Below are positions 9,896 through 25,586 of a stretch of 38,790 bases of DNA, in pieces (the first letter of the stretch is position 1; each line of letters begins with the position of its first letter). Both the position numbers and the translations under genes were made by a program. Source of the stretch: an uncultured Lachnospiraceae bacterium. GTDB taxonomy: Bacteria; Bacillota; Clostridia; Lachnospirales; Lachnospiraceae. The DNA is taken from contig CAMWLV010000018.1 in the NCBI GenBank assembly GCA_947175175.1, positions 1 through 38,790 of the forward strand. The letters run 5' to 3'. A model generated the notes under the pieces. The model was not told the origin of the DNA. It did not search any database and saw nothing but the letters and a program-made list of their open reading frames with translations.

Positions 9896-11491
9896 GTGAG
9901 TACAATTGCAGAGGAAATAAACAAGAGGAGGACTTTTGCCATTATATCGCATCCTGATGCTGGTAAGACAACCTTGACTGAAAAATTTTTGCTGTATGGA
10001 GGAGCCATCAATCTTGCCGGAAGCGTTAAGGGCAAAGCGACTGCAAGACATGCAGTGTCAGACTGGATGGAGATTGAGAAGGAGCGAGGTATCTCGGTCA
10101 CGTCCTCCGTTTTGCAGTTTAATTATGATGGTTACTGTATCAATATTCTGGATACGCCGGGGCATCAGGACTTCTCTGAGGATACGTACAGAACGCTTAT
10201 GGCAGCAGATTCGGCTGTCATGGTAATCGACGCGTCAAAGGGTGTTGAGGCGCAGACAAGAAAGCTTTTCAAGGTCTGCGGTATGAGAGGGATTCCCATT
10301 TTTACTTTTATCAACAAGATGGACAGGGATGCAAACGACACGTTTGAGCTTCTTGACGAGATTGAGAAAGAGCTTGGTATCGCTACCTGCCCTGTCAACT
10401 GGCCAATTGGTTCGGGAAAGCGTTTTAAGGGAGTCTACGACAGGCATGGGAACCATGTGCTCACCTATTCTGATACCCAGAAAGGAACAAAAGAGGGCGA
10501 GACGACAGTGATTCCGATGGATGATGAGGCGCTTTTGCTTGAAAATATCGGTGATGAGGCGCTCACAACACTGCGCGATGAGATAGAGCTTCTCGACGGG
10601 GCGAGTGCAGAGTTTGATATCGAGGAAGTGCGCAGGGGAAAGCTGACGCCTGTATTTTTTGGCTCAGCGCTCACGAATTTTGGTGTGGAAGTATTTTTGC
10701 AGAACTTTTTGAAGATGGCAACGACACCGCTTCCAAGAATATCACAAGGAGAGACGATCGACCCTGTCGACAATGATTTCTCCGCTTTTGTGTTTAAGAT
10801 ACAGGCGAATATGAATAAGGCGCACCGCGACAGGGTGGCGTTTATGCGCATCTGTTCGGGAAAGTTTGATGCCAGCGCGGAGGTGAAACACGTGCAGGGC
10901 GGGAAGGTGATGCGCCTCTCCCAGCCACAGCAGATCATGGCGGACGAGCGGAAGATACTGAACGAGGCGTATGCAGGGGACATTATCGGTGTGTTTGATC
11001 CGGGGATTTTTTCCATCGGAGATACTGTCTGCGCGCCGAAAAATAACATCTGCTATGAAGGGATACCGACTTTTGCGCCAGAGCATTTTGCACGGGTGAG
11101 ACAGATTGACACGATGAAGAGGAAGCAATTTATCAAGGGTGTCAATCAGATTGCGCAAGAAGGCGCGATTCAGATTTTTCAGGAGTTTAACACTGGTATG
11201 GAGGAGATTATCGTGGGTGTAGTAGGCGTACTGCAGTTCGATGTGCTCAAATACCGTCTGGAAAATGAGTACAATGTCGAAATCAATCTCGAGCCGCTTC
11301 CATATGAGTATATCCGCTGGATCGAGAATAAGGACGAGGTTGACCTGAATAAGCTTTCCGGTACTTCGGATATGAAGAAAATACAGGATTTGAAAGGAAA
11401 TCCGCTGCTCTTGTTTATCAATCAGTGGAGCATCGGCATGACTGTTGACAGAAACAAAGGGCTTGTGCTCTCGGAATTTGGCAGAAATTAA
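9896..11491 (+). CDS. prfC: Peptide chain release factor 3 (RF3)
   Basis: RF3 is a translational GTPase that removes RF1/RF2 from the ribosome after termination. The G1 motif is HPDAGKTT (residues 19-26), the switch/G2 region contains MEIEKERGISVTSSV, G3 is DTPGHQDF (86-93) and G4 is NKMD (140-143). The 531-residue length and the C-terminal domain fit PrfC rather than EF-G. Translation starts at GTG, with CGGAGGATA upstream. It follows deoB in the same direction. No terminator is seen downstream; the next gene begins after 58 nt. Confidence 0.97.
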   Translation: MSTIAEEINKRRTFAIISHPDAGKTTLTEKFLLYGGAINLAGSVKGKATARHAVSDWMEIEKERGISVTSSVLQFNYDGYCINILDTPGHQDFSEDTYRTLMAADSAVMVIDASKGVEAQTRKLFKVCGMRGIPIFTFINKMDRDANDTFELLDEIEKELGIATCPVNWPIGSGKRFKGVYDRHGNHVLTYSDTQKGTKEGETTVIPMDDEALLLENIGDEALTTLRDEIELLDGASAEFDIEEVRRGKLTPVFFGSALTNFGVEVFLQNFLKMATTPLPRISQGETIDPVDNDFSAFVFKIQANMNKAHRDRVAFMRICSGKFDASAEVKHVQGGKVMRLSQPQQIMADERKILNEAYAGDIIGVFDPGIFSIGDTVCAPKNNICYEGIPTFAPEHFARVRQIDTMKRKQFIKGVNQIAQEGAIQIFQEFNTGMEEIIVGVVGVLQFDVLKYRLENEYNVEINLEPLPYEYIRWIENKDEVDLNKLSGTSDMKKIQDLKGNPLLLFINQWSIGMTVDRNKGLVLSEFGRN

Positions 11492-11509
11492 TCATTAGGA
11501 GTATAAAGG

Positions 11510-11549
11510 TTGGTATGCGTCGGAGCACGCAAGGGGTATAAAATCGTAA
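11510..11549 (+). promoter_or_regulatory. Shared leader element, copy A (short form)
   Basis: TTGGTATGCGT, then CGGAGCACGCA, then AGGGGTATAAA directly precedes the start codon at 11550. TGCGT can pair with ACGCA. The same sequence with two extra stem bases occurs just upstream of the genes at 22163 and 23970. The upstream GTTTGAAAG/CTTTCAAAC hairpin of those copies is absent here. The ribosome binding site AAGGGG follows the hairpin immediately. Confidence 0.65.
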
Positions 11550-12785
11550 ATGAGAAAATGGACAGTGTTGTGGGCGGCGCTGATCGGCAGTATGATGCTT
11601 TTGGCACAGGGATGCTCAGATCAGGAGGCTTTTGATATTCAGTATATTATACGCGGAGAGAAAAGCGCTGAGGAAGAAGAAAGTACGATAGAGTCACGCG
11701 AGTATGAACCAGAACAGCCGCAGGATAATAGTACAGAAGCGGAGACCTTGACGGAGGAGCAGAGCGTCAGGGAAGTCTCAGAGCTTTATTATGCATATCA
11801 CCATCTTGACGGGGAGAAACAGAAAATTTATCTCGAGATGTTCGATGCGCTGACCGGGATGAAGAACGGAGTGCCGCTTTCCACGTTGGACAAGTCTGAG
11901 CTGGATGTTGTGTTTGCCTGTGTGATGAATGACCACCCGGAGCTTTTTTATGTAGATGGATATCAGTATACAGAGTACACACTTGGCAATACTGTAACAG
12001 GAATTACGTTCAGCGGTACTTATTCCATGACAAGTGCAGAGGTGGAACAGGCAAGGCTTGGGATTGCGCAGAAGCTTGCGGAGTGCTTTCAGCAGGTTCC
12101 GTTAAATGAGGATGAGTACAGTACTGTCAAATATTTGTATGAATGGCTGATCAATCATACGGAATATGATAGGGATGCAGAAAATAATCAGAATATTTGT
12201 TCCGTGTTTCTGCAGGGACGGTCAGTTTGTCAGGGTTATGCAAAGGCGATGCAGTATATGCTGCAGGCAGCGGATATTCAGTGTGTGTTAGTGACTGGAT
12301 TCACAAACGGTGAGCGGCATGGGTGGAATCTCTTGCGGGTGAACGGTGAATATTATTATCTGGATCCGACATGGGGAGATGCTTCCTATGCATCGGGCAG
12401 TGTGGACAGCATACTGGACGGCTTTGTTCCAGCCATCAATTATGACTATTTTCTGGTGACAACGGATGAAATCACCAGGACGCATTCGATTGAGAAAGTG
12501 GTGGAGCTTCCGCAGTGTACTGCGGTCAATGACAATTATTTTGTGCGTGAAGAATTGTATTTTGACAGCTATGATGAAGCCCGACTTGCCGCTGTCTTTG
12601 GCAGTGAAGCGGCGAAAGCTGCAGGCTGCGTGACCTTGAAATGCGATAACAGTGAAACGTATGAGCTGATGGTGCAGACATTGATTGCGTCACAGAAGAT
12701 TTTTGATTTTGTGGACAAGCAGGGAGAGAGTATTGCATATACCTCGAATGAAGAGCAGAGGACAATCAGCTTTTGGAATATATAA
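11550..12785 (+). CDS. Lipoprotein with transglutaminase-like domain
   Basis: The 411-residue protein begins with a signal peptide ending in a lipobox (LLAQGC, lipid-anchored C22). A Glu/Ser-rich linker follows (about residues 23-75). The transglutaminase-like fold carries the expected triad: C227 in GRSVCQGYA, H257 in GERHGWN and D272 in YYLDPTWGD. Such proteins are usually cell-surface cysteine peptidases or crosslinking enzymes; the substrate cannot be inferred. It follows prfC by 58 nt, and its ribosome binding site belongs to the leader copy A. The remaining about 110 C-terminal residues have no recognised domain. Confidence 0.85.
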   Translation: MRKWTVLWAALIGSMMLLAQGCSDQEAFDIQYIIRGEKSAEEEESTIESREYEPEQPQDNSTEAETLTEEQSVREVSELYYAYHHLDGEKQKIYLEMFDALTGMKNGVPLSTLDKSELDVVFACVMNDHPELFYVDGYQYTEYTLGNTVTGITFSGTYSMTSAEVEQARLGIAQKLAECFQQVPLNEDEYSTVKYLYEWLINHTEYDRDAENNQNICSVFLQGRSVCQGYAKAMQYMLQAADIQCVLVTGFTNGERHGWNLLRVNGEYYYLDPTWGDASYASGSVDSILDGFVPAINYDYFLVTTDEITRTHSIEKVVELPQCTAVNDNYFVREELYFDSYDEARLAAVFGSEAAKAAGCVTLKCDNSETYELMVQTLIASQKIFDFVDKQGESIAYTSNEEQRTISFWNI

Positions 12786-22068: not shown

Positions 22069-22162
22069 TCGGTTATGCGGAATGGAGGATGGGGTTTGAA
22101 AGAAAGGTCACTTTCAAACGATTGATTGGTATGCGTGCCAGAGCACGCAAGGAGGTATAAAT
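22069..22162 (+). promoter_or_regulatory. Shared leader element, copy B
   Basis: Two hairpins are visible. GTTTGAAAG (22094-22102) pairs with CTTTCAAAC (22111-22119) around a loop containing GGTCA. Then TTGGTATGCGTGC / CAGA / GCACGCA forms a 7-bp GC stem, followed at once by the ribosome binding site AAGGAGG and TATAAAT before the ATG. The same arrangement occurs at 23842-23969, with promoter, hairpins and ribosome binding site in the same order, and in shortened form at 11510. Confidence 0.7.
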
Positions 22163-22744
22163 ATGATATTAAAAGATTACATGGATACAAGAAAATTGCA
22201 GGATTTACAGAATTCTTTTACAGAGTTTGCAGGTTTTGATGCTGTCGTGGTTGACGTGGAAGGAGAGCGCCTGACAGAAGGACATGATTTTCAGGAGGAG
22301 GAAACGGATTCCTTTGACATTGTTGTGAATGGTGAGAGGCTCGGTGCGGTTGTCGTTTCACAGTCTTTGGACAGAAAGGCAAAGCGCGCTGCACAGATGC
22401 TTAGTACGATGATCAGTCAGACAGCAAGTCTGGAACATCTGAATAACAGAAATACTGGGAAATTTGATTCGGTGAAGGACGATATCAAGAAATCTGGCGA
22501 GTTGGTGCAGATGATCAATGAGAAGACAGGGCATCTGAAGGGAATTGCCAAGAAGCAGACAATCTTATCTCTCAACGCCACAATAGAGGCTGCAAGAAGC
22601 GGCGAAGCGGGTGTCGGTTTTGCAGTTGTTGCTAAAAGCATGCAGGATTTGTCAAATCAGTCAGCGGGAATTTATACAGATATTGAGACATCAGTCGAGG
22701 AAATTACCAACCTGATCAATTCGATTATTGATTCACTAGAATAA
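22163..22744 (+). CDS. Soluble chemoreceptor-like (MCP hairpin) protein
   Basis: The 193-residue protein has no transmembrane helix or HAMP domain. Residues about 6-70 resemble the start of a PocR-type sensory domain (LQDLQNSFTEFAGFDAVVVD), which is much shorter than a full one. Residues about 75-190 are helical and hold the conserved hairpin tip of methyl-accepting chemotaxis proteins: LSLNATIEAARSGEAGVGFAVVAKSM (about 135-160). That tip normally contacts CheW and CheA, so it may be a cytoplasmic chemoreceptor or an adaptor; the two helical arms are unusually short. AAGGAGG precedes the ATG. It has its own promoter and a terminator, so it is monocistronic. Confidence 0.8.
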   Translation: MILKDYMDTRKLQDLQNSFTEFAGFDAVVVDVEGERLTEGHDFQEEETDSFDIVVNGERLGAVVVSQSLDRKAKRAAQMLSTMISQTASLEHLNNRNTGKFDSVKDDIKKSGELVQMINEKTGHLKGIAKKQTILSLNATIEAARSGEAGVGFAVVAKSMQDLSNQSAGIYTDIETSVEEITNLINSIIDSLE

Positions 22745-23467: not shown

Positions 23468-23510
23468 ATATTTTCTCCTTGCATAATAAAAATAAGTAGT
23501 TTGATAATAA

Positions 23511-23664
23511 GGAACTGTTAAAGAATTAATCTTTACATCTGACTTGTCTAAATCTTCTTATGCCGCGTTGTCGTCAATCGGCGTACCCCAGTACGCCTCA
23601 TTCCTCCGCCTTGCATAAAAAGATTTATCCTGCGTCATATGCAAAGTTAATTCTTAACAGTTCC
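23511..23664. repeat. MITE-like palindromic repeat, copy 2
   Basis: This 154-bp element ends in GGAACTGTTAA and its inverted copy. ATCTTCTTATGC (23552-23563) pairs with GCATAAAAAGAT (23613-23624), and GGCGTAC (23580-23586) pairs with GTACGCC (23591-23597) around a CCCA loop. The layout equals that of copy 1 at 10-167 although the stem bases differ. The stretch 23665-23806 beyond it is AT-rich and contains no feature I can support. Confidence 0.8.
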
Positions 23665-23806
23665 TAATTATAAAATGGTTATGTCTATACCTCATAAGCT
23701 ATCTATATTATAATAAAAAATGAGTTCAAATAACAAGTAGCAGCTTATTAAAATATGATAAAAAAATTAAACTTAGATAAAAAATGTTATATACTCTTTT
23801 ATTTTC

Positions 23807-23841: not shown

Positions 23842-23969
23842 TGACGGATTATGCATCACAGAAGGATACACTGATAAGAGTGATGCAGCAGAAAAGGAAA
23901 AAGTTTGAAAGCAGGTCACTTTCAAACTTTTGATTGGTATGCGTGCCGGAGCACGCAGGGGGTATAAAT
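23842..23969 (+). promoter_or_regulatory. Shared leader element, copy C
   Basis: An extra hairpin, TGCATCAC (23852-23859) with GTGATGCA (23880-23887), is followed by GTTTGAAAG (23903-23911) pairing with CTTTCAAAC (23919-23927), loop CAGGTCA. Next comes TTGGTATGCGTGC / CGGA / GCACGCA, the ribosome binding site GGGGG and TATAAAT. From the GTTTGAAAG stem onwards it is nearly identical to copy B. Confidence 0.7.
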
Positions 23970-25586
23970 ATGAAAAACAGACAAAGAAAAATTGCTTTAC
24001 TTTTATGTGCGGCACTGTCTGCATCAGCTTTTTGGGGATGTGGGCAGACGACAGAGGAGGTAACTGTGGATGATGTGGCGATTGTCGAGACGGCAAATCC
24101 TGAGGTGGGAGAACTGAAGCTCAGTGCGAATTTTATTGCCACGATTAATCCAGATGAGTCAGTGTATGTGATTCCCAAGGCTACAGCGGAGGTGGTTGAG
24201 GTTCTTGTTGAGGCAGGTGATGTCGTGGAAGAAGGTGATGTGCTTGCCGTGCTGGATGATACGGTAGCACAGTTTACGATGAGAAATGCGGAGGCAGCTG
24301 CCCAGAATGCGCAGCTTGGTCTGGCGAATGCACAACTTGGTCTGGCAAACGCACAGCTTGGTTATGACCTGCAGTATGGCGATGCGGCAACGATTCTCAA
24401 TGATATGAATTCGGATGTTACACTCACACAAGTAGAGGATGGTATGACTCAGCTTCAGGAGTCCTATATGGATGCAATGGATACGCGCCAGCAGACAATG
24501 GATAAGCTCAAAGATGCGGAGAAGGAGCTTGCGGACTTGAAAGAGCAGTATGGTTACAAAGAAGACGTCGACGAGATTAAGGAGTATGCAGAGACGCTCT
24601 CCAAAGTTCCGGATATCTCTGAACTGGGACCGGCTGCCTCCATGATGGATCCCAGTTCTTTGGTTAGTTTTTCTGAGTATGGGCGTGCAATGGCCAGGTA
24701 CCAGGAGGCAGCACAGAAGGATGCCACAGTGGACGCCAAGATCAAGCAGTACAAAGCAGCGATCGACCAGTGTGAGGAGGCACTTGAAACGATCCAGGAT
24801 CAGATGGACAGTACATATGAGAACTACAGCCGCACGGTAGTTTCCCAGGATCTCAGCAACGGAGTGCTAAGGGACGAACAGAAGCAGACATCACAGAATG
24901 GCATTTCGCAGGCAGAGCTTGGCATTTCGCAGGCAGAGGCAGGCATTTCGCAGGCACAGATCTCAATCGATCAGGCCCATGAAAATCTGGATGCTTACAC
25001 GATCACAGCTGCGATCTCTGGTGTTGTGGAAAGTGTGAATATCAAGGAGCACGATTTTGCCACATCAAGCAATCCGGCATTTGTGATCTCTAACAAAAAT
25101 ACGATGGTTGCTACCTATTATGTAAGTGAGGACGTAAGGAATACTTTCTCGATGGGGCAGAAGATCACGCTCGAAAAGGATGACAAGCTTTATGACGGTG
25201 AAGTGATAGAGATCGGAAGTGCAATTGATGCGGCGACAGGTCTGTTCAAAATCAAGGCTGCTGTCAAGGGGGATACTGCGAATCTGCTTTCCGGCACAAA
25301 AGCAACAGTGACGACAGATACATATCATGAAAAAAATGCGATTATTATACCATATGATTCTGTTTACTATGATGGAACACAGGCTTATGTATATACCGTT
25401 GTGGACGGAAGGGCAAAGAGGACAGAAGTGACGACGGGACTTTACGACATTGACCGGATCGTGGTCACAGAGGGACTTGCCAAGGATGATACCATCATTA
25501 CTACATGGTCTGCCCAGCTGCGTGACGGTGTGGAGATTTCTGCACGTAAGAGCAGTGCAGATACGGAAAAGAATGCGCAGGAATAG
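23970..25586 (+). CDS. RND efflux adaptor (HlyD/AcrA-type membrane fusion protein)
   Basis: The 538-residue protein has a signal peptide that ends in an imperfect lipobox (AFWGC, C23), so it is probably membrane anchored. A biotinyl-lipoyl half-motif (VVEVLVEAGDVVEEGDVLAVLDD) lies near residues 75-97, followed by a long alpha-helical hairpin and the second lipoyl half near YTITAAISGVVESV. Beta-barrel and membrane-proximal parts follow (FSMGQKITLE, then IPYDSVYYDG). Both arms of the hairpin contain three tandem heptads encoded by 21-bp repeats. The true start is 23970, where the leader's GGGGG is the ribosome binding site. The RND pump gene follows after 13 nt. Confidence 0.9.
   Translation: MKNRQRKIALLLCAALSASAFWGCGQTTEEVTVDDVAIVETANPEVGELKLSANFIATINPDESVYVIPKATAEVVEVLVEAGDVVEEGDVLAVLDDTVAQFTMRNAEAAAQNAQLGLANAQLGLANAQLGYDLQYGDAATILNDMNSDVTLTQVEDGMTQLQESYMDAMDTRQQTMDKLKDAEKELADLKEQYGYKEDVDEIKEYAETLSKVPDISELGPAASMMDPSSLVSFSEYGRAMARYQEAAQKDATVDAKIKQYKAAIDQCEEALETIQDQMDSTYENYSRTVVSQDLSNGVLRDEQKQTSQNGISQAELGISQAEAGISQAQISIDQAHENLDAYTITAAISGVVESVNIKEHDFATSSNPAFVISNKNTMVATYYVSEDVRNTFSMGQKITLEKDDKLYDGEVIEIGSAIDAATGLFKIKAAVKGDTANLLSGTKATVTTDTYHEKNAIIIPYDSVYYDGTQAYVYTVVDGRAKRTEVTTGLYDIDRIVVTEGLAKDDTIITTWSAQLRDGVEISARKSSADTEKNAQE
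24306..24368 (+). repeat. Three 21-bp tandem repeats in the adaptor, first helical arm
   Basis: Units at 24306, 24327 and 24348 encode NAQLGLA, NAQLGLA and NAQLGYD. Each is one coiled-coil heptad, so copy-number change would shift the helix by whole turns. Confidence 0.9.
24900..24962 (+). repeat. Three 21-bp tandem repeats in the adaptor, second helical arm
   Basis: Units at 24900, 24921 and 24942 begin GGCATTTCGCAGGCA and encode GISQAEL, GISQAEA and GISQAQI. The number of units equals that on the opposite arm, whose repeat has a different sequence. Confidence 0.9.

Follow-up and report, generated by a model that had tools for sequence, protein, structure and literature searches.

Here, we describe a short repeated sequence that is probably a mobile element. 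By our reading, it is a non-autonomous unit of ~66 nt which would insert, in the sense orientation, into the spacer between the Shine-Dalgarno (SD) sequence and the start codon of a gene, its own SD replacing the old one. The window (the whole stretch of DNA analysed, 38,790 nt from an uncultured Lachnospiraceae bacterium) contains copies B, C and A. Each unit comprises, in order, hairpin 1, a TTGATTGG linker, hairpin 2 and its own SD, followed by the start codon. The basis for this reading is comparative: copy number, presence/absence, placement, split spacers, insert length, covarying hairpins and occurrence in several genera. In the mechanism that we propose, the element would enter the spacer between the SD and the start codon of a gene, a few nucleotides upstream of the start. 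Because the element has an SD close to its 3′ end, the gene should still be translatable, and this SD would presumably become the working ribosome-binding site. An enzyme acting in trans may recognise the element as a folded single strand, ssDNA or RNA, by means of its two hairpins.

Copies in the window

Copy B separates the old SD from the ATG at 22163, where a gene with an MCP signalling domain begins (Table 1). It is present in the near relative G017, and the orthologous site in G013 is empty: G013 reads GGAATGGAGGATGGAATATG, versus an element between GGAGGATGG and AATATG in the window. The old SD now lies 74 nt before the start codon. Copy C precedes the ATG at 23970 of a gene for an HlyD-type efflux adaptor, with an AcrB-type transporter gene next. 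Its site is without the element in G013, G007, G003 and many other genomes, and the net gain relative to G013 is 66 nt. Copies B and C have in common hairpin 1, a linker with TTGATTGGTA, hairpin 2 and the SD, and they share 92% identity over a 48-nt core. As the covariance model R1 was built in part from these two copies, their R1 scores are not independent. Within the HlyD-type adaptor gene itself, we also observe three 21-nt tandem repeats (24892-24954).

Table 1. Positions of the element copies, their parts and related features (window coordinates, except where a locus is named)
Feature	Position	Strand	Basis
Copy B of the element	22092..22160	+	R1 model match, 84.6 bits
Old pre-insertion SD (GGAGG) of gene B	22084..22088	+	Kept at the G013 empty site GGAATGGAGGATGGAATATG
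Hairpin 1, copy B (GTTTGAAAG / CTTTCAAAC)	22094..22119	+	Sequence, fold, family covariation
Hairpin 2, copy B (TGCGTGC / GCACGCA, loop CAGA)	22132..22149	+	Sequence, fold, family covariation
Putative element-borne SD, copy B (AAGGAGGT)	22149..22156	+	Sequence; AGGAG unpaired in centroid fold
Copy C of the element	23901..23968	+	R1 model match, 94.0 bits
Hairpin 1, copy C (GTTTGAAAG / CTTTCAAAC)	23903..23927	+	Sequence, fold
Hairpin 2, copy C (TGCGTGC / GCACGCA, loop CGGA)	23940..23957	+	Sequence, fold
Putative element-borne SD, copy C (AGGGGGT; first A closes hairpin 2)	23957..23963	+	Sequence; GGGGGT unpaired in centroid fold
Copy A, shortened hairpin 2 and SD, without hairpin 1	11510..11541	+	Weak R1 match
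L172, hairpin 1 alone	L172:4736-4768 = G000:C5:6235-6267	-	5′-half search

RNA folding predicts both hairpins in the leaders of B and C (z -2.24 and -2.47). The centroid folds leave the SD core unpaired, namely AGGAG in copy B and GGGGGT in copy C. In copy B there is weak pairing of the final G and T of the SD, and the minimum-energy fold of copy C has three paired SD bases. The initial annotation had put the GC hairpin on the ribosome-binding site. The hairpin does adjoin the SD, ending directly 5′ of it (in copy B, the first A of the SD closes the stem), but it does not cover the SD. A promoter had also been proposed as part of the module. We place the promoter-like sequence of B outside, because the empty site in G013 has it in its flank as well. 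Copy A, which had been taken as a third copy, gives a weak R1 match (11486-11542, 25.5 bits) upstream of a transglutaminase-like gene at 11550. It lacks hairpin 1, and since its orthologue in G017 (L089/L129) is full length, we regard it as a decayed copy.

Distribution, empty sites and placement at start codons

The near-identical two-hairpin leaders at B and C, pointed out at the start, are real and far from isolated. In the 4.1-Mb genome of the window (G000), 78 places match a 25-nt hairpin-2 pattern with up to three mismatches and none match the reversed control, which excludes chance. R1 finds 86 matches in G000, 78 in G017 and 9 in G013. Of the 38 genomes of the genus, 21 have at least one match, with 0-6 copies outside these three. 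Under strict filters, 9 of 397 genomes of the family match; in the order, 7 of 392 do, all from Lachnospiraceae (G000 is included in both counts). The narrow pattern has no match in 24 genomes of other families of the same order. A wider model, R2, run on 19 selected genomes and limited to 150 scored candidates per genome, extends the range to other genera of the family, with up to 109 copies. Fifteen of the 19 have a match, among them G168 (109), G409 (41), the single-contig genome G405 (21) and G374 (11). The exact pattern occurs in 43 named stretches, all from metagenome-assembled genomes, labelled Lachnospiraceae or Acetatifactor and in one case only "bacterium"; the family and genus names used here rest on these labels. 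From alignment A1, 10 of 105 unique candidates were left out, on account of odd length, a doubtful hairpin 1 or, for L179, likeness to L169. Carriage by phages or plasmids was considered and set aside: three patterns had no match in viral contigs, phage matches amounted to three weak partial ones, and there was no plasmid match. Our literature search found no element of this kind; most subscription papers lay outside it, and absence from print is thus not proven.

Two variants were also seen. A longer one at L110:4052-4154 has an extra hairpin (AATAGAAT..ATTCTATT) between hairpins 1 and 2. Another, at L350:1191-1266 in G168, has a different second hairpin (ATCGCAGGC ATA GCCTGCGAT) before GCAGGGG and ATG, hinting at a wider superfamily.

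Presence or absence of the element was compared between G000 and G017 at 34 sites. Nineteen are shared, nine lack the element in G017 (five of these at ≥94% identity), five have no orthologue, and one has the element in both genomes, shortened in G017. Because 19 of the 34 sites are common to G000 and G017, many insertions cannot be recent and must predate the split. Eight more sites of G000 were compared in six genomes. The element-free G017 sites at 94-99% identity number eight: L004b, L015, L038, L018, L022, L025, L040 and L046. At L022, the G017 sequence AAGGGGTAGAATATG may represent what is left of a copy and not an empty site.

The net gain was anchored on both sides at 17 sites, comprising 12 hand-chosen pairs and 5 that were added (57, 57, 62, 63 and 66 nt); the set leaves out L073, a truncated copy, and pairs marked as shared among the 34 sites. 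The gain is 66 nt at nine sites and 62-67 nt at 15. Values other than 66 are 67, 65, 64, 64, 63 and 62 nt at six sites and 57 nt at two (L022 and L040); L018 has a loop deletion of 2 nt. Ten of the first 12 pairs have an SD-like stretch as one anchor and the start codon as the other, with 5-11 nt between them at the empty site. The upstream flank, usually including the old SD, remains upstream of the element. No clear target duplication is seen at the 17 site pairs, where up to three A's at the junction are ambiguous; these A's cannot be assigned to either side and would leave room for a short duplication. By eye, the 5′ end AAGTTTGAAAG does not match the reverse complement of the 3′ end (TTTATACCCC), that is, we see no terminal inverted repeats.

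Placement with respect to genes shows a preference for starts. By exact recount, 60 of the 78 pattern copies are in sense, with an ATG or GTG 8-11 nt after the pattern and an ORF of at least 50 codons, a test passed by 3.9% of 20000 random positions from the G000 loci and the window. The 18 copies that fail are of four kinds: inner units of tandem pairs (four; L010, L016, L026, L069), a start at 12-16 nt (three; second copy of L006, L024, L064), an ATG at the usual distance with no long ORF (four; L005, which is the same site as L004b, second copy of L010, L014, L031) and locations elsewhere (seven; L025, L028, L032, L033, L040, second copy of L043, L054). Among the 60 G000 copies scripted as full length with a readable 3′ flank, ATG is found within 8 nt downstream in 48, GTG in 4 and neither in 8, the last being four tandem junctions, L025, L033, L040 and L064 (ATG at 10). 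At least one of the four GTGs, at L032, is not an ORF start. By our own 32 gene calls, the window has 237 non-start intergenic ATG/GTG/TTG triplets versus 32 true starts; hence an NTG motif combined with loss of genic insertions would not by itself favour true starts.

Similar placement is seen in other genera. For four genomes of four other genera, we took one match per locus (of 62 in all) and allowed ATG, GTG or TTG; 33 of the 40 loci have an ORF start between -3 and +9 nt relative to the match. The seven loci without a nearby ORF start include several tandem junctions or short ORFs, as well as L359 and L362 of G409, which have no ATG. Of 76 G000 copies with enough flank, none is clearly inside a gene; a frame is open for 450 nt across the element in nine, in seven of these on the opposite strand only. 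The copies that miss the usual placement count against our reading, as do the two 57-nt gains and the sites shared with G017. L025 was inserted before an AATATG that overlaps the stop of the upstream gene, ~30 nt before the real start; at L004b, the insertion precedes an ATG with only a few codons; and at L040, the relative has no ATG at the insertion point and 8 nt are missing. One of two readings on offer from the outset had been a mobile 5′ module supplying both a promoter and a ribosome-binding site. Many copies before unrelated genes, empty sites and the ~66-nt gain all speak for mobility, and a module with a putative ribosome-binding site of its own is strongly supported; a promoter as part of it is not.

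Hairpin covariation and downstream genes

The initial annotation had asked for covarying stem pairs, and these are found between lineages. When 71 matches taken from other genomes (67 loci) were aligned to R1, 94% of the cells are paired and two-sided change is evident in 11 of 16 pairs (87 cells), in an alignment fitted to the structure, which favours covariation. When the partner was slid by 1-3 columns, at most 5 pairs and 23 cells were obtained; in the shuffle control, 11 pairs were reached in 6 of 500 cases and the other measures in none. Because the stems covary between lineages, we conclude that the structure does have a function, be it in movement or in place. Copies within G000 give a different picture. 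Among 54 distinct rows, there are 54 one-sided stem changes and none that is compensated, with variation of 1-5% in stems versus 10-22% in loops. We read this difference of between- and within-genome changes to mean that structure is kept in the moving lineage and that little is kept after insertion. The low variation of the stems would also fit a degree of constraint after insertion.

The other reading on offer was a cis-regulatory RNA, in which the hairpins would act as a sensor or as the binding site of a factor and govern translation of a dispersed regulon, the leader having spread because it is useful. Covarying hairpins that adjoin the SD would suit such a leader, as would the fixed position at starts and, in G000, stems that vary less than loops. 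The genes downstream, however, form no shared class. Twenty downstream proteins of G000 (of 73 ORFs listed) were scanned; 19 belong to unrelated Pfam families, which include FabF, DHFR, pantothenate kinase, HisF, dUTPase and MATE, and one has no match. Of 10 downstream proteins from other genera, nine are in unrelated families and one in none, and there is no transposase among the 10. Rfam 15 has no match in the window at the gathering score. In five loci searched at E up to 1, six weak Rfam matches were obtained, all at L238:2085-2145, away from the element. Also at odds with regulation are the low copy number in the rest of the genus, the lack of any compensatory change among the 54 distinct G000 copies, the SD core predicted to be free and the tandem arrays. 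We therefore consider a regulatory leader improbable. Absence of covariation, random sites and copies inside genes had been named as signs of a plain repeat; judged by these, the leader is not refuted. As compared with the structured leader RNAs of Rfam, the element is alike in that its hairpins adjoin the SD, and unlike in having no family match in the window, no gene class and apparent mobility.

Decay, candidate movers and known repeats

The 78 places were found through the 3′ half of the element. At 15 of them the 5′ arm of hairpin 1 is missing, at one it is cut by the contig end, and at three it is changed or displaced. A 5′-half query yields 57 matches in G000, of which one, L172, is without the 3′ half; it is flanked by an MCP gene and a response-regulator gene and is not placed at a start. 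This search, made in G000 and G017 for an autonomous form whose halves would flank a gene, gave seven G000 matches outside the hairpin-2 list. These are L172, L167, which is cut by the contig end, and others that have a diverged 3′ half or are a tandem unit, and we set the autonomous form aside. That hairpin 1 can be lost through later deletion is shown by copy A and by L003/L104, which differ by a deletion that in L104 took the old SD too. Loss of the 5′ part with retention of the SD part would be expected if the gene now depends on the SD of the element. Five loci of G409 carry identical copies.

Tandem units differ between close relatives. L010, L016 and L026 are tandem pairs in G000 versus a single copy in G017; the reverse is true of L007, single in G000, for which G017 has an extra unit (L177). 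Tandem spacing is ~66 nt in G168 and G374 and ~75 nt in G405. Such tandems would be explained either by repeated insertion at the same start codon or by unequal exchange. In G405, three tandem units precede an ATG (G405:C1:2548886-2549109).

What moves the element? Our search covered PF01797 (Y1 transposase) and PF00078 (reverse transcriptase), and neither turns up in every high-copy genome. Among 16 genomes, PF01797 has no match in G000, G013, G168, G409, G374 or G404, 3 matches in G017, 4 in G405 and 13 in G022. For PF00078, G000 and G168 give no match and G017 a fragment that falls below the cut-off; it is present in G409, G374 and G405. A single absence from G000 says little, since this genome is 86.5% complete. 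It is the joint pattern of presence and absence across the high-copy genomes that disfavours either enzyme as the shared mover.

These data bear on two more specific proposals. Single-strand HUH transposition is characterised by hairpin ends, one orientation, and neither terminal inverted repeats nor target duplication. A REPIN- or MITE-like element moved through its two hairpins by an IS200/IS605-type (Y1 HUH) or related single-strand transposase would account for hairpins near both ends without terminal inverted repeats, for the want of a resolved target duplication and for the one orientation relative to the target. Yet PF01797 is missing from four high-copy genomes (G000, incomplete as it is, G168, G409 and G374) and has 13 matches in G022, a genome without the element by either model, and we think this route doubtful. 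Alternatively, the RNA of the element may enter initiation sites, in mRNA or in DNA, and then be reverse transcribed. Sense orientation at starts, a near-constant distance to the start codon and acceptance of GTG are in keeping with such retrotransposition. So are the sense-strand mismatches between lineages, where G-U exceeds A-C by 51 to 28 in rows that are not independent; within G000, by contrast, the counts are 23 versus 19, with no strand bias, and we regard the G-U excess as a suggestive strand sign between lineages only. Target-primed reverse transcription, which might be read from ragged 5′ ends, is weakened by the full-length orthologue of copy A and the deletion at L003/L104, the ragged ends being later deletions in both cases checked. 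With PF00078 distributed as it is in G000, G168 and G017, retrotransposition seems to us more doubtful still than a Y1 enzyme, and rather unlikely overall.

Returning to a non-autonomous element that inserts before start codons, we can compare it with known repeats. REP elements, associated with RAYT transposases, are short, hairpin-forming, high in copy number and without coding capacity, they occur in tandem groups, and their palindromes have a GTAG-type tetranucleotide at the foot. The element described here shares the short, hairpin-forming, high-copy, non-coding and tandem character of REPIN/REP. It differs in lying in sense between an SD and a start codon, in having its own SD and in that no Y1 transposase is common to its high-copy genomes. 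By eye, the GTAG-type tetranucleotide is not at the foot of hairpin 2, which in G000 is preceded by GGTA.

Like MITEs, the element is non-autonomous, very short, presumably moved in trans, multicopy and polymorphic between close relatives; unlike them, it has no terminal inverted repeats (by eye) or resolved target duplication, and it targets translation starts. The window also contains what looks like an ordinary MITE. This second, unrelated repeat of ~165 nt at 23501-23675 has inverted ends (AAGGAACTGTTAA / TTAACAGTTCCTAA), and copies 77-100% identical are found elsewhere in G000 and in G017, G013, G002, G005, G003 and G061. At the contig start, 6-171 holds an 82-nt inverted repeat (76%), of which 149-170 resembles 23646-23667; this repeat may be a further copy of that MITE.

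The pneumococcal BOX, RUP and SPRITE repeats (PMC3049150) are similarly small, structured and amplified in one lineage. According to that account, BOX and RUP have terminal inverted repeats and target duplications and SPRITE is enriched near the 3′ ends of genes, features of which we see no clear sign in our element.

A bolder proposal is that the element represents a new mobile class, one that targets the initiation site (SD, spacer and start, GTG included), is recognised via the mRNA or the initiation machinery and not a DNA motif, and survives by replacing the ribosome-binding site. We put this forward tentatively, as possible rather than probable. The gap between SD and start codon is among the worst places for insertion of DNA, and yet it is the place that the element prefers, which raises the question of how a transposition system might recognise translation starts. 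The element might prove to be a tool for swapping ribosome-binding sites, and it serves as a warning that dispersed hairpins close to an SD are not to be taken for riboswitches. Finally, since dozens of ribosome-binding sites would have been rewritten, including those of housekeeping genes (FabF, DHFR, pantothenate kinase), gene expression in this bacterium has perhaps been widely reset.
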